A stretch of DNA of 48,240 bases. It comes from Paludibacteraceae bacterium. GTDB lineage: Bacteria > Bacteroidota > Bacteroidia > Bacteroidales > Paludibacteraceae. Location: NCBI GenBank assembly GCA_017417025.1, contig JAFPZY010000035.1, positions 1 through 48,240 on the forward strand, given 5' to 3'. The notes under the pieces were generated by a model. That model was not told where the DNA came from. It did not search any database and saw only the letters and a program-made list of their open reading frames with translations. The position numbers and the translations under genes are program-made. Positions within the stretch are counted from its first letter, which is position 1. The number at the start of each line of letters is the position of its first letter. Positions 546 to 47,866 of the stretch are shown in pieces.

Positions 546-985
546 AGCAAAGCGGGAAGCCGATACAGGCAAAGCAGGAAGGCGATACTGGCAAAGCGGG
601 AAGGCGATACCGGCAAAGCAAGCATGCTATGCAGGCAAAGGGGGAAGGCGATACCGGCAAAGCAAGCATGCTATGCAGGCAAAGCGGGAAGGCGATATTG
701 GCAAAGCGGGAAGGCGATACCGGCAAAGCGGGAAGGCGATATAGGCAAAGCAGGAAGACGATACCGGCAAAGCGGGAAGGCGATATTGGCAAAGGGGGAA
801 GGCGATACCGGCAAAGCAGGAAGGCGATACCGGCAAAGGGGGAAGGCGATACCGGCAAAGCAAGCATGCTATGCAGGAAAAGGGGGAAGGCGATATAAAC
901 AAAAACAAGATGCAATATAAACAAAAACAAGATACAATATAAACAAAAACAAGATGCAATATAAACAAAAACAAGATATGCTTAA
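546..985 (+). repeat. 22-nt tandem array forming the adk leader
   Basis: Twenty consecutive 22-nt units keep exact register from 546 into the start of adk. Most begin GGCAAAG and end GGCGATAC plus one base. A variant with the palindrome AGCATGCT occurs at 612, 656 and 854. The last four units (from 898) have a different sequence, AACAAAAACAAG followed by an A/T-rich end, yet stay in phase. The ATG of adk lies inside the last unit. All three forward frames are free of stops through most of the array, so ORFs here reflect composition and are not good evidence of genes. See findings. Confidence 0.9.
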
Positions 986-6675: not shown

Positions 6676-6741
6676 AATCACCTACTAATCACCTACTAAT
6701 CACCTACTAATCACCTACTAATCACCTACTAATTTCCTACT
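6676..6741. repeat. 11-nt tandem array, six copies
   Basis: Six units of AATCACCTACT start at 6676, 6687, 6698, 6709, 6720 and 6731; the last one diverges. The array lies between the glycosyltransferase gene and the ychF promoter. A related 11-nt array (AATCACCCAAT) occurs at 26764-26818. Confidence 0.9.
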
Positions 6742-6854
6742 ATTGACAGCGTAACGAGAGAGCACTTACGGCAGAGGGAGAGAGGGGGTTCCGCTGAATG
6801 TTGATATGATTTCATTGCAAGTTGATGCGATTTCATTGCAAAAGTAAGAGTTTT

Positions 6855-6888
6855 TTTGCATATATGCAAATTTCTTCGTACCTTTGCA
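6855..6888 (+). promoter_or_regulatory. Promoter of ychF with palindromic -33 element
   Basis: The palindrome TTTGCATATATGCAAA (6855-6870) supplies the -33 TTTG. The -7 box TACCTTTGCA is at 6879-6888, 24 nt from start to start. The expected transcript start is near 6892, about 495 nt before the start codon. Confidence 0.75.
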
Positions 6889-6920
6889 TGTTTTTTGGGC
6901 AGGAAAAGCCCAAAAAACAT
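6888..6920 (+). other. 13-bp hairpin at the predicted 5' end of the ychF transcript
   Basis: Arms ATGTTTTTTGGGC (6888-6900) and GCCCAAAAAACAT (6908-6920) are perfect complements around a 7-nt loop. The hairpin begins at the predicted transcript start, so the mRNA would begin with it. It could protect the 5' end. It has no trailing T run, so a terminator is unlikely. Confidence 0.7.
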
Positions 6921-6923
6921 AAT

Positions 6924-7345
6924 AAAGAGAGACGAGAAGTCCCATAAAGAGAGACGAGAAGTCCCATAAAGAGAGACGAGAAGTCTCGTAAAGAGAGACG
7001 AAAAGTCCCGTAAAAAGAGACGAGAAGTCTCGTAAAGAGAGACGAGAAGTCCCGTAAAGAGGGACAAGAAGTCACACAAAAGAGAGACGAGAAGTCCCGT
7101 AAAGAGGGACAAGAAGTCCCGCAAAAGAGAGGCGAGAAGTCCCGTAAAAAGAGACGAGAAGTCCCGTAAAGAGAGACGAGAAGTCTCGTAAAGAGAGACG
7201 AGAAGTCCTGTAAAGAGAGACGAGAAGTCCTGTAAAGAGGGACAAGAAGTCTCGTAAAGAGGGACGAGAAGTCCCGTAAAAGAGAGACGAGAAGTCCCGT
7301 AAAGAGGGACGAAAAGTCCTGTAAAGAGGGACAGCAAATATCTTA
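6924..7345 (+). repeat. 22-nt tandem array forming the ychF leader
   Basis: About 19 units, mostly 22 nt (a few 23), follow the pattern AAAGRGRGAC, then GAGAA, then GTCYC and two or three more bases. Unit starts at 6924, 6946, 6968, 6990 and 7012 are exactly spaced. Each unit can fold GRGAC/GTCYC around a five-base loop. GAGAC tends to pair with GTCTC and GGGAC with GTCCC, with some mispaired copies. TAA in most units closes all forward frames, so the leader is not coding. Its length matches the adk leader although the sequence is unrelated. Confidence 0.9.
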
Positions 7346-7386
7346 AAAAGAGACAAGACAAGAATTCAGAAAAAAGGAATAAGACC

Positions 7387-26763: not shown

Positions 26764-26818
26764 ACAAAAGGGGTAATCACACAATAATCACCCAATAATA
26801 ACCCAATAATCACCCAAT
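26764..26818. repeat. 11-nt tandem array
   Basis: Five units close to AATCACCCAAT occur with an 11-nt period. The sequence resembles the 11-nt array at 6676-6741. Confidence 0.8.
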
Positions 26819-26869
26819 AATAGTGCAATAGTGATAGCGGAATAGTAGTATTACCTGACCTGTTAAATT

Positions 26870-27072
26870 TAGTAGGGTTACTAGACTTACTATATTTACC
26901 GGACTTACCGGATTTACCGGACTTACTAGGGTTACTAGGCTTACTAGGGTTACTAGGCTTACTAGATTTACCGGACTTATTAGATTTACCGGATTTACCG
27001 GACTTAGCAGTTCTAATAATCCTCTATTGCTTATCGCAGGCTGGAAGCCTGCGTACCCGGTGTGTGCGGGGG
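26870..27072. repeat. 9-nt array with REP-like copy 3
   Basis: About fourteen 9-nt units alternate between TTACTAGAC/GGG and TTACCGGAC/GAT forms (26870-27012). They are followed by a REP-like palindrome at 27035-27053 and TACCCGGTGTGTGCGG. The apparent ORF on the minus strand (NLVSLVTLV repeats) only reflects the array. Confidence 0.8.
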
Positions 27073-27132
27073 GGCTATTGACGATGCGAGGCGGGAGAGA
27101 AAGGGGAAGGGGAAAAATAAGTGTAACTTTTA

Positions 27133-27166
27133 TTTGCACAGTCCGCAAAAAAGCCGTACCTTTGCA
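27133..27166 (+). promoter_or_regulatory. Promoter upstream of tRNA-Arg
   Basis: TTTGCACAGTCCGCAA (from 27133) and TACCTTTGCA (27157-27166) are 24 nt apart. Transcript start is expected near 27171, about 185 nt before the tRNA. The gap is filled with repeats. Confidence 0.65.
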
Positions 27167-27169
27167 GGC

Positions 27170-27355
27170 GCAAACGGTGGCCTTGACATATATCAGCGGC
27201 AAACGGTGGCTTTAGAGAAAAGCAAGAACCGCGGCTTTAGAGAAAAGCAAGAACCGCGGCTTTAGAGAAAAGCAAGAACCGCGGCTGACTATATTGCGGC
27301 TGCAAACGGTGGGCTGACATATTGCGGCGGCAAACGGTGGCTTTAGAGAAAAACG
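27170..27355 (+). repeat. 25-nt tandem array in the tRNA-Arg leader
   Basis: Three exact 25-nt units starting GGCTTTAGAGAAAAGCAAG begin at 27208, 27233 and 27258, with partial units at both sides that share GCGGCAAACGGTGG. The last partial unit ends directly against the tRNA's first base. The segment has no ORF of note and would be cut off as a 5' leader during tRNA maturation. Confidence 0.85.
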
Positions 27356-27427
27356 GGTCCTTTAGTTCAATGGATAGAATACGGGTTTCCTAAACCTTAG
27401 ATCCGGGTTCGATTCCCGGAGGGACTA
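27356..27427 (+). tRNA. tRNA-Arg (CCT anticodon)
   Basis: A cloverleaf folds with a D arm containing TTCAATGGATAGAA, an anticodon loop TTCCTAA (anticodon CCT, reading AGG) and a T arm CCGGGTTCGATTCCCGG. The acceptor ends are GGTCCTT and the complementary GGGACT plus discriminator A. CCA is not encoded. The first acceptor pair is G-U and the first anticodon-stem pair looks mismatched; the rest is standard. Confidence 0.93.
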
Positions 27428-27440
27428 CAACAGAGTGCAT

Positions 27441-27478
27441 TTCAGGCATCCTCCTGCGAAAGCGGGGGGATGCCTGAA
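27441..27478 (+). terminator. Long GAAA-loop hairpin after tRNA-Arg
   Basis: A 17-bp stem (27441-27457 with 27462-27478) is closed by a GAAA tetraloop, a GNRA type. Two G-U pairs replace G-C in the middle. It begins 14 nt after the tRNA and has no clear T run. It may stop transcription or mark the 3' processing site. Confidence 0.6.
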
Positions 27479-27499
27479 GGGTTAATTGCGAGGTTGAGA

Positions 27500-27745
27500 A
27501 TAGGCCTACTAGACTTACTAGACTACTAGACTTACTAGACTTACTAGACTACTAGATTTACTAGACTACTAGACTTACTAGACTTACTAGATTTACCAGA
27601 CTACTAGACTTACTATATTTACTATACTTACTATACTTACTGGACTTACCGGACTTACTGGATTTACTGGATTTATTAGATTTATTAGACTTACTAGGCA
27701 TAGTATTGCTTACCGCAGGCTGGAAGCCTGCGTACCCAGTGTGTG
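27500..27745. repeat. ACTAG-rich array with REP-like copy 4
   Basis: About twenty short units (CTTACTAGA, CTACTAGA, TTTACTGGA and similar) run from about 27500 to 27705 and end at a REP-like palindrome at 27714-27732 followed by TACCCAGTGTG. On the minus strand this reads as SKSNKSSKSS-type repeats, which is a translation artefact. Confidence 0.8.
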
Positions 27746-29976: not shown

Positions 29977-30028
29977 TGCAAAGGTACAAAAAAATTTGCA
30001 TGTATGCAAAAAAAAAACTAACTTTGCA
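29977..30028. promoter_or_regulatory. Symmetric divergent promoters sharing one palindromic -33 element
   Basis: The palindrome TTTGCATGTATGCAAA (29995-30010) has a -7 box exactly 24 nt from each of its ends: TACCTTTGCA on the minus strand (29977-29986, rfbC) and TAACTTTGCA on the plus strand (30019-30028, M6 protease). One element thus serves as the -33 box of both genes, so their polymerase sites overlap and may exclude each other. Confidence 0.75.
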
Positions 30029-47159: not shown

Positions 47160-47340
47160 AAAAAGTAAAATTCCCCACCCACCCCCTCCTTCAACCCTCC
47201 CTCACACCCTCATTCAACCCCTCCCCACACACTCCTTCACACACTACTTCACACACTCCCGCAACCATCCCTCACACACTCCTTCCCCCCTTCCCTCAAC
47301 ACCAAAAAACACCCTTCCCCCACCCAACCCACATCCCCCA
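47160..47340. other. C-rich low-complexity stretch
   Basis: C/A/T-rich text with many TCACACACTCC-like segments and almost no G on this strand. ORFs here (proline- and threonine-rich) look like compositional artefacts. Confidence 0.6.
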
Positions 47341-47344
47341 CCAA

Positions 47345-47455
47345 ACTAGTAAGTCTGGTAAAACTAATAAGACTATCAAGTCTGGTAAAACTACCAAAAC
47401 TACCAAAACTACCAATCCAACCACCGGGTACGCAGGCTTCCAGCCTGCGGCAAAA
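47345..47455. repeat. Inverted array with REP-like copy 5
   Basis: Short units such as CTGGTAAAACTA and ACTACCAAA, inverse versions of the TTACTAG arrays in 26-28 kb, are followed by CGCAGGCTTCCAGCCTGCG at 47431-47449. The order is opposite to that at 26870-27072, so the whole module is inverted. Confidence 0.75.
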
Positions 47456-47499
47456 GAGAGTAGTGCTGAATTATCAATAATCAATCCTCAGCTGTCCTT

Positions 47500-47640
47500 T
47501 TCCTCTTCGTTATGTTCGCTGAGCTTTCCTCTTCGTTATGTTCGCTGAGCTTTTCTTTTCGTTATGTTCGCGGAGTTTTCCTCTTCGTTATGTTCGCGGA
47601 GCATTTCTCTTCGTTATGTTCGCGGAGCTTCAGCTCCGTG
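47500..47640. repeat. 26-nt tandem array, five copies
   Basis: GTTATGTTCG occurs at 47509, 47535, 47561, 47587 and 47613, exactly 26 nt apart, with TTCCTCTTC before it and GCGGAG or GCTGAG after. The last copy ends in the palindrome CGGAGCTTCAGCTCCG. Confidence 0.85.
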
Positions 47641-47778: not shown

Positions 47779-47866
47779 TCCAACCGAAGGATAACCGAAG
47801 GATAACCGAAAGATAACCGAAGGATAGACCCGACATCAAGCAGACATCAAGCAGACATCAAGCCGT
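47779..47866. repeat. Inverted copy of the two-array composite
   Basis: Four 11-nt units ACCGAAGGATA are followed by three AGCAGACATCA-type units, the inverse of 108-200 in the same order. The rest of 47867-48177 is A/T- and C-rich with no gene seen. Confidence 0.8.

Follow-up and report, generated by a model that had tools for sequence, protein, structure and literature searches.

What is a long array of 22-nt tandem repeats doing between the promoter and the start codon of a housekeeping gene, and how did it come to be there? The window that we analysed is one contig of 48,240 bases from a 2.18-Mb genome of the Paludibacteraceae, and the gene is one that we take to be ychF, following its first naming from the sequence rather than a family library. 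For counts across the genome we used 717,049 bases, with the studied contig included (sample 1), and 366,255 further bases (sample 2). The main features of the ychF locus, and of the adk leader in the same window, are:

547 to 977, plus strand: adk leader arrays, a 22-nt unit in 15.9 copies and a second 22-nt unit in 3.9 copies that runs into the start region
6676 to 6742, minus strand: 11-nt array, AATCACCTACT in 6 copies, within the divergent gene's leader; it belongs to a dispersed family and is distinct from the ychF unit
6855 to 6886, plus strand: ychF promoter, TTTG (-33) and TACCTTTG (-7), a consensus match of the form TTTG-N-TACCTTTG
6888 to 6920, plus strand: perfect 13-bp hairpin, ATGTTTTTTGGGC / GCCCAAAAAACAT, at the predicted 5' end of the ychF mRNA
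6923 to 7332, plus strand: 22-nt tandem array of 18 full units, consensus GAGAGACGAGAAGTCCCGTAAA, from TRF and unit alignment
7333 to 7386, plus strand: decayed partial repeats to about 7358, then an A-rich stretch ahead of the start codon
7387 to 8487, plus strand: ychF, 366 aa

The promoter before ychF is a good Bacteroidota promoter; the consensus TTGN{18,22}TANNTTTG had 615 matches in the genome versus 102 for a backwards control, and the 1.2 kb upstream of the gene yielded no second TAnnTTTG box. Measured from the end of the -7 box (6886) to the ATG (7387), the leader is 500 nt long, against a median of 69 nt for the 149 leaders of sample 1. Genes were called with a home-made hexamer model; leader counts are approximate, and some long array-free leaders are probably missed genes. 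The initial annotation had remarked on how close the ychF and adk leaders are in size (495 and 484 nt in its measure), and they are indeed 500 and 490 nt. The divergent promoters at 6839-6886, and likewise those at 29979-30026, use one palindromic -33 box per pair (TTTGCATATATGCAAA and TTTGCATGTATGCAAA, respectively).

TRF reported the array at period 22 with 18.5 copies, 87% matches and a score of 604. The aligned full units span 6927-7325, three of them being followed by one extra base, with a degenerate copy at about 7325 and fragments up to about 7358. The array that had been put at about 19 units is thus there, with 18 of them complete. Its composition is 43% A, 31% G, 16% C and 10% T. 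The only ATG, GTG or TTG triplets in the ychF leader are at 6888 and 6895, both ahead of the array; as to coding potential, the array has no start codon, and the length of its unit is not a multiple of 3. A scan found no intrinsic terminator-like site on the sense strand of the array; on the minus strand there were 17 terminator-like matches (1.3 expected), mostly of one repeated motif. At up to 2 mismatches the unit had 18 matches in the genome, every one inside the array.

TRF and the repeat finder also called a period of 200 nt at 90% identity. However, identity between units is 0.899 at an offset of nine and 0.876-0.898 at other offsets (0.898 at two), and a nine-unit block duplication, which would support recombination, is barely visible unit by unit; since units nine apart are no more alike than units two apart, it is not established. 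The unit variants comprise 25 transitions to 1 transversion (9:1 as distinct variants), compared with 284:213 (227:179) in 109 other intergenic arrays, counting only those with at least 3 copies and free of indels. The post hoc Fisher test gives p = 2e-5 on cells and 0.048 on distinct variants, and the adk array has no such excess (19:18). Something may hold the purine/pyrimidine pattern of the ychF array, but we treat the excess as a lead only, because the test was post hoc and the variants are partly copies of one another.

Orthologous leaders and the origin of the array

The closest ychF proteins that we found, at 92%, belong to two uncultured Bacteroidales genomes (UBA7009 and RUG12580), followed by four at 86-87% from Paludibacteraceae of deer and buffalo gut. 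No second genome of the same species was among the ychF matches, a set from which very near genomes may be missing. There were 38 relatives with a strong ychF match, and the 29 that had loci were read, with at least 598 nt of upstream sequence in 28 and 364 nt in one. A full-consensus promoter was present in 18 of the 29 loci, the nearest lying 25-155 nt from the aligned start in 17 of these; the other (L029) has its full promoter 462 nt from the start and weaker -7 boxes at 106 and 54. In the two nearest relatives (L082 and L083), a ychF-like promoter lies 26 and 44 nt from the ATG.

A second set, partly of the same genomes, was made up of the best 80 of 593 confirmed loci. The longest array between a found promoter or -7 box and the start in these 80 was two 23-nt copies in a 67-nt leader (L084, from the relative G015), and another leader, of 47 nt, has 2.7 copies of a 15-mer (L103). 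The -7 box was not found in 10 of the 80, among them two loci (L087 and L150) with 31- and 37-nt arrays near the start.

The most direct comparison is with five relatives in which ychF has the same divergent neighbour (six loci, with L010 and L089 coming from a single genome). The complete intergenic region spans 754 nt in our genome and 80, 80, 80, 81 and 142 nt in these relatives, each with a TACCTTTG box and a start codon and none with the array. The short, array-free regions argue that the array grew inside a short ancestral leader. Absence from the orthologous intergenic regions is one mark of a lineage-specific minisatellite and, together with the uniqueness of the unit, it points to local, lineage-specific amplification rather than to a conserved regulatory leader or a dispersed element.

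We consider that the ychF array is probably a lineage-specific minisatellite, transcribed and largely passive, in a repeat-prone lineage. The ancestral leader would have been short, with about 25-45 nt from promoter to start codon. A 22-nt stretch would then have been amplified by slippage or unequal recombination, adding about 455-475 nt, in what would be one case of a genome-wide filling of noncoding DNA with arrays at 11 nt and its multiples. We expect the array to be part of the transcript, within the untranslated leader. It may be tolerated as a purine-rich sequence with no start codons and no sense-strand intrinsic terminator seen in the scan, the A-rich stretch before the ychF start having been kept. 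Any effect on expression would probably be passive, and a strong function is presumably lacking.

Pairing within the units

Within each unit, GRGAC can pair with GTCYC to close a 5-nt loop. The 5-bp stem per unit proposed in the initial annotation therefore holds as a capacity, with 89% of positions paired in register against 25-46% when the arms are slid by 1-3 columns, but all five pairs form in just 7 of the 18 units. Selection on pairing had been read from the GAGAC/GTCTC and GGGAC/GTCCC forms. Variation on both sides is seen at a single stem pair, which in 10 of the 18 units is an A·C mismatch (the others are A/T in 3, G/C in 3, G/T in 1 and G/A in 1). The two sides of this pair showed no association across the 18 units (Fisher p = 1). 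Summed over units, there were 79 pairs, against 79.6 (sd 0.9) when the right arms were shuffled among units; pairing with the next unit gave 76 pairs against 75.5, and among the 13 distinct units 89.2% of cells were paired against 89.9%. Pairing is no better than shuffled in either register, which does not bear out the earlier reading. The pairing capacity is that of one inherited unit sequence copied 18 times.

Fold energies were ambiguous, since the evidence that they give for structure depends on the null model. The MFE is -142, compared with a mean of -78 for dinucleotide shuffles (z = -13.4), but these shuffles destroy the repeat. Against a null that keeps the repeat, the consensus unit in six copies stands at the 48th percentile of 500 shuffled units, while the fully paired GGGAC/GTCCC variant folds better than all 500 of 500; the real array stands at the 5th percentile of 300 in which one column permutation was applied to all units. 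There is some structure in the array, with no sign of selection on pairing. The 13-bp hairpin ahead of it is the only one with arms of at least 10 bp within the first 60 nt among the 149 leaders of sample 1; in control stretches upstream of promoters, 2 of 149 reach arms of 11 and 13 bp.

A selected RNA leader, in which a stack of small hairpins, joined by the 13-bp hairpin at the 5' end, protects or regulates the ychF mRNA, would account for the low MFE relative to the shuffle mean, the 5th percentile among column-permuted arrays, the 500/500 of the fully paired variant, the hairpin at the predicted 5' end and the 25:1 transitions. Of these, the percentile among permuted arrays and the transition excess also weigh against the minisatellite reading. 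We nonetheless consider it unlikely. There is no covariation in either register, the consensus unit is ordinary among shuffled units and the array is absent in relatives. RNAalifold on the units gave a 3-bp consensus stem with a covariation term of -0.05, where the rpsA leaders of relatives (below) give a 7-bp stem and -0.57. No Rfam family matched the ychF leader, and the array thus has none of the marks of a structured cis-regulatory leader: an Rfam match, covarying pairs or conservation before orthologues.

Long leaders before other housekeeping genes

The initial annotation had proposed one leader design for two housekeeping genes, and the design recurs. The three largest leader arrays among 228 leaders are those of adk (415 nt, in 22-nt units), ychF (396 nt) and rpsA (338 nt), in leaders of 490, 500 and 510 nt; the arrays are mutually unrelated, and the array parts are 4-10% T. 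The leaders of gyrA and lysS also have arrays, of 282 and 34 nt (the names rpsA, gyrA and lysS are our assumption, read off translated sequences rather than taken from library matches). The second adk array (893-977) duplicates the start region and includes an in-frame ATG at 954, 24 nt ahead of the ATG at 978.

Matches to adk came from 40 genomes, of which 30, our own included, had loci. Neither the 29 relatives for which loci were available nor the two nearest genomes showed an array comparable to that of adk. The adk leader of G015 (524 nt) has 117 nt of 21-nt repeats, and one further adk locus (L222) has four 9/10-nt arrays of 26-58 nt each upstream of its nearest promoter. That G015 has small, unrelated repeats at both adk and ychF counts against the minisatellite reading.

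For rpsA there were 12 loci, nine of which were aligned (L295 and L297-L304); our own locus (L294) holds the array, L296 repeats L295, and L305 does not have the GCTTTTT arm. The nine leaders share this 5' hairpin arm and a TTTAAC-type element (ATGTTTAAC in 7 of 9), and their 7-bp stem shows wobble changes and one pair changed on both sides. No Rfam match was found in the six rpsA loci scanned. In our genome, one array lies between the two hairpin arms and another between the TTTAAC-type element and the start codon, so that the conserved arms and element are left in place. This placement fits arrays growing where they do little harm.

In sample 1, arrays account for 13.9% of the bases in leaders and 11.0% of those in other intergenic DNA; in sample 2 the shares are 9.7% and 11.5%. 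At least 25 nt of array are present in 17 of 149 and 10 of 79 leaders of the two samples, respectively. A leader-specific enrichment, slightly up in the one sample and down in the other, was rejected; as the shares are inconsistent across samples, leaders are not special. The proposal of one leader design with different repeats therefore stands as a description of adk, ychF and rpsA, but not as a shared regulatory mechanism: with relatives lacking the arrays and with no consistent preference for leaders, a shared mutational process explains the resemblance more simply.

We also examined purine bias. On the sense strand, purines exceed half of the array part in 16 of the 17 leaders with arrays in sample 1 (86 of 123 for array-free leaders). 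In a test fixed beforehand, the figure for sample 2 was 8 of 10 (p = 0.11; array-free 32 of 64), and in relatives it was 6 of 11. Counted per array in sample 1, purine majorities occur in 20 of 22 arrays in leaders and 34 of 41 in co-directional gaps where no promoter follows; the figures are 27 of 48 for arrays followed by a promoter, 13 of 30 for those in convergent gaps and 11 of 21 for those in the remaining divergent gaps. Purine bias as a general property of leader arrays, weaker in sample 2 and absent in relatives, was rejected. Because the bias is also seen in co-directional gaps and is absent in relatives, it is not peculiar to leaders, nor does it hold throughout the genus.

Leaders of about 500 nt, U-poor and purine-rich, may instead have arisen independently before adk, ychF and rpsA, with length and composition selected and sequence not. 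They could provide, for instance, an A/G-rich landing zone for the ribosomal protein bS1, with repeats as a quick way to build such a leader. bS1 is the product of rpsA, and to our knowledge the phylum lacks Shine-Dalgarno sequences. The leaders of 490, 500 and 510 nt, their 4-10% T, their rank as holders of the three largest arrays among 228 leaders and the ychF transition excess all speak for selected composition. We regard it as improbable all the same, given the fall in purine bias from 16/17 to 8/10 and 6/11, the 34/41 of co-directional arrays and the 19:18 of adk. The convergence of three housekeeping leaders on 490-510 nt with U-poor arrays counts against the passive-minisatellite reading, and it keeps a functional one open, at low probability.

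Repeats across the genome and known repeat systems

There were 239 arrays in sample 1, of which 183 are intergenic (48 of the 56 in called genes have a unit length divisible by 3), and 104 in sample 2, of which 81 are intergenic. The load in sample 1 is 33.3 arrays per 100 kb, or 11.4% of intergenic bases. The numbers of intergenic arrays with unit lengths from 9 to 13 nt are 1, 1, 50, 2 and 5 in sample 1 and 2, 0, 21, 1 and 0 in sample 2; from 20 to 24 nt they are 5, 5, 22, 6 and 4 in sample 1. Unit lengths thus peak sharply at 11 nt and its multiples, a result replicated in sample 2. Elsewhere in the window, 26869-27697 and 47180-47630 hold more dense arrays around other genes, with 9/18/27-, 12/23- and 26-nt units.

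Array density per 100 kb ranges from 7.5 to 25 in ten relatives with 40 kb sampled, and from 4.3 to 33.7 in six with 118-200 kb sampled. Five of these six have 4.3-13.5 per 100 kb and 1.3-3.8% of intergenic bases; the sixth, G015, is as array-rich as our genome (33.7 per 100 kb, 7.7% of intergenic bases), which we count against the preferred explanation. The unit length is a multiple of 11 in 85 of the 183 intergenic arrays of our genome, 11 of 20 in G058 (probably one genome with G049, from identical matches), 9 of 11 in G011 and 4 of 28 in G015, where multiples of 7 are favoured instead (14 of 28; loci L162, L163 and L254-L257).

The 11-mer arrays form dispersed families. The 96 intergenic 11-mer arrays of our two samples gave 87 pairs with an identical unit (on either strand, in any rotation), whereas shuffling the units, in 20 rounds, gave 0.05 such pairs on average. 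Identical arrays occur at unlinked loci, some in other species, and those in the window are at 155-200, 6676-6742, 26774-26821 and 47782-47826. The AATCACCTACT array ends 112 nt ahead of the ychF promoter. Exact two-copy matches of AATCACCTACT were found in 26 of 121 genomes of the genus, our own included, with at least 14 places in our own, and those of TGTTAATCCTG in 10 of 121, with 9 places in our own; the backwards controls of both had no match in the 121 genomes. GACAGC lies within 25 nt of 17 of 194 ends of 11-mer arrays (e.g. at 6743-6765); the corresponding counts are 2 of 280 for the ends of other arrays and 76 of 15,085 for background intergenic windows. It could mark the ends of a repeat element, and the 11-mer arrays may be their own kind of element. 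The ychF array is outside these families.

The sharp peak at 11 and its multiples would also suit a DNA-level element, in which repeats of 11 or 22 bp, one or two helical turns, line up sites for protein or for bending along the same side of the helix in the DNA that separates divergent promoters; the ychF array does adjoin a divergent promoter pair with a common palindromic -33 box. However, the array is downstream of the promoter, its unit is unique in the genome, seven 11-mer families, inspected by eye, are not placed or oriented in any consistent way with respect to genes or promoters, and G015 prefers multiples of 7. Such an element is improbable. We give still less credence to a mobile repeat of the kind of BrickBuilt, the minisatellite-MITE of Porphyromonas. 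The setting agrees (Bacteroidales, intergenic, units of about 22 nt) and the neighbouring 11-mer arrays do form dispersed families, but the ychF unit has a single locus in the genome, its flanks, compared with the roughly half of the genome sampled, matched nothing but promoter-like stretches and the array, and a search limited to inverted repeats of at least 40 nt found none around the array. Lastly, an artefact of this metagenome-assembled genome is very hard to credit, as the units differ from one another, the array lies inside a 48-kb contig and its flanks on either side match the orthologous promoter and gene, even though contig ends are array-richer (in sample 1, 9 of 40 ends have an array within 200 nt, compared with 292 of 3518 windows in contig interiors). 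This enrichment suggests that repeats probably break the assembly, and the assembled copy number may be wrong.

A lineage-specific minisatellite at ychF would mean that a housekeeping leader can grow from tens of nucleotides to 500 nt within one lineage while the gene stays intact. It also serves as a warning that the units of one array can mimic selected hairpins with no sign of selection on pairing. Units locked to 11 nt (7 nt in one relative) and identical 11-mers at unlinked loci bear on how bacterial noncoding repeats arise and spread, and the genus offers more than 100 genomes in which the origin and spread of such repeats can be tested.

We found no paper on these arrays in the open-access PMC literature, but three known systems resemble them in part. 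BrickBuilt of Porphyromonas gingivalis is reported to consist of imperfect 23-nt tandem units, intergenic, in 1 to 22.8 copies at 19 dispersed loci, most of which are flanked by a leader, a tail or both and end in small inverted repeats; a transcriptional role has been suggested (PMC4596501). On that description, the ychF array is alike in its order, its intergenic position and its near-equal unit length (22 versus 23 nt), and unlike in having one locus and no inverted-repeat ends seen at 40 nt or more. The TAACTGA heptamer repeats are described as intergenic in Beggiatoaceae, Cyanobacteria and Bacteroidetes (PMC4679880). As described there, they share with the ychF array a position between genes and ahead of start codons, but they are one 7-nt sequence at many loci, whereas ychF has a unique 22-nt unit with separate 11-nt families nearby; it is the 11-mer families, and not the ychF unit, that have one short unit at many loci. 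The tandem repeats of archaeal Borgs are reported to be recent, independently formed and A-enriched, with flanking partial repeats, in intergenic regions and ORFs (PMC9879509). The ychF array is likewise A-enriched with partial repeats beside it, but Borgs are extrachromosomal elements of archaea, whereas here the repeats belong to a bacterial genome and have a dominant period of 11 nt.
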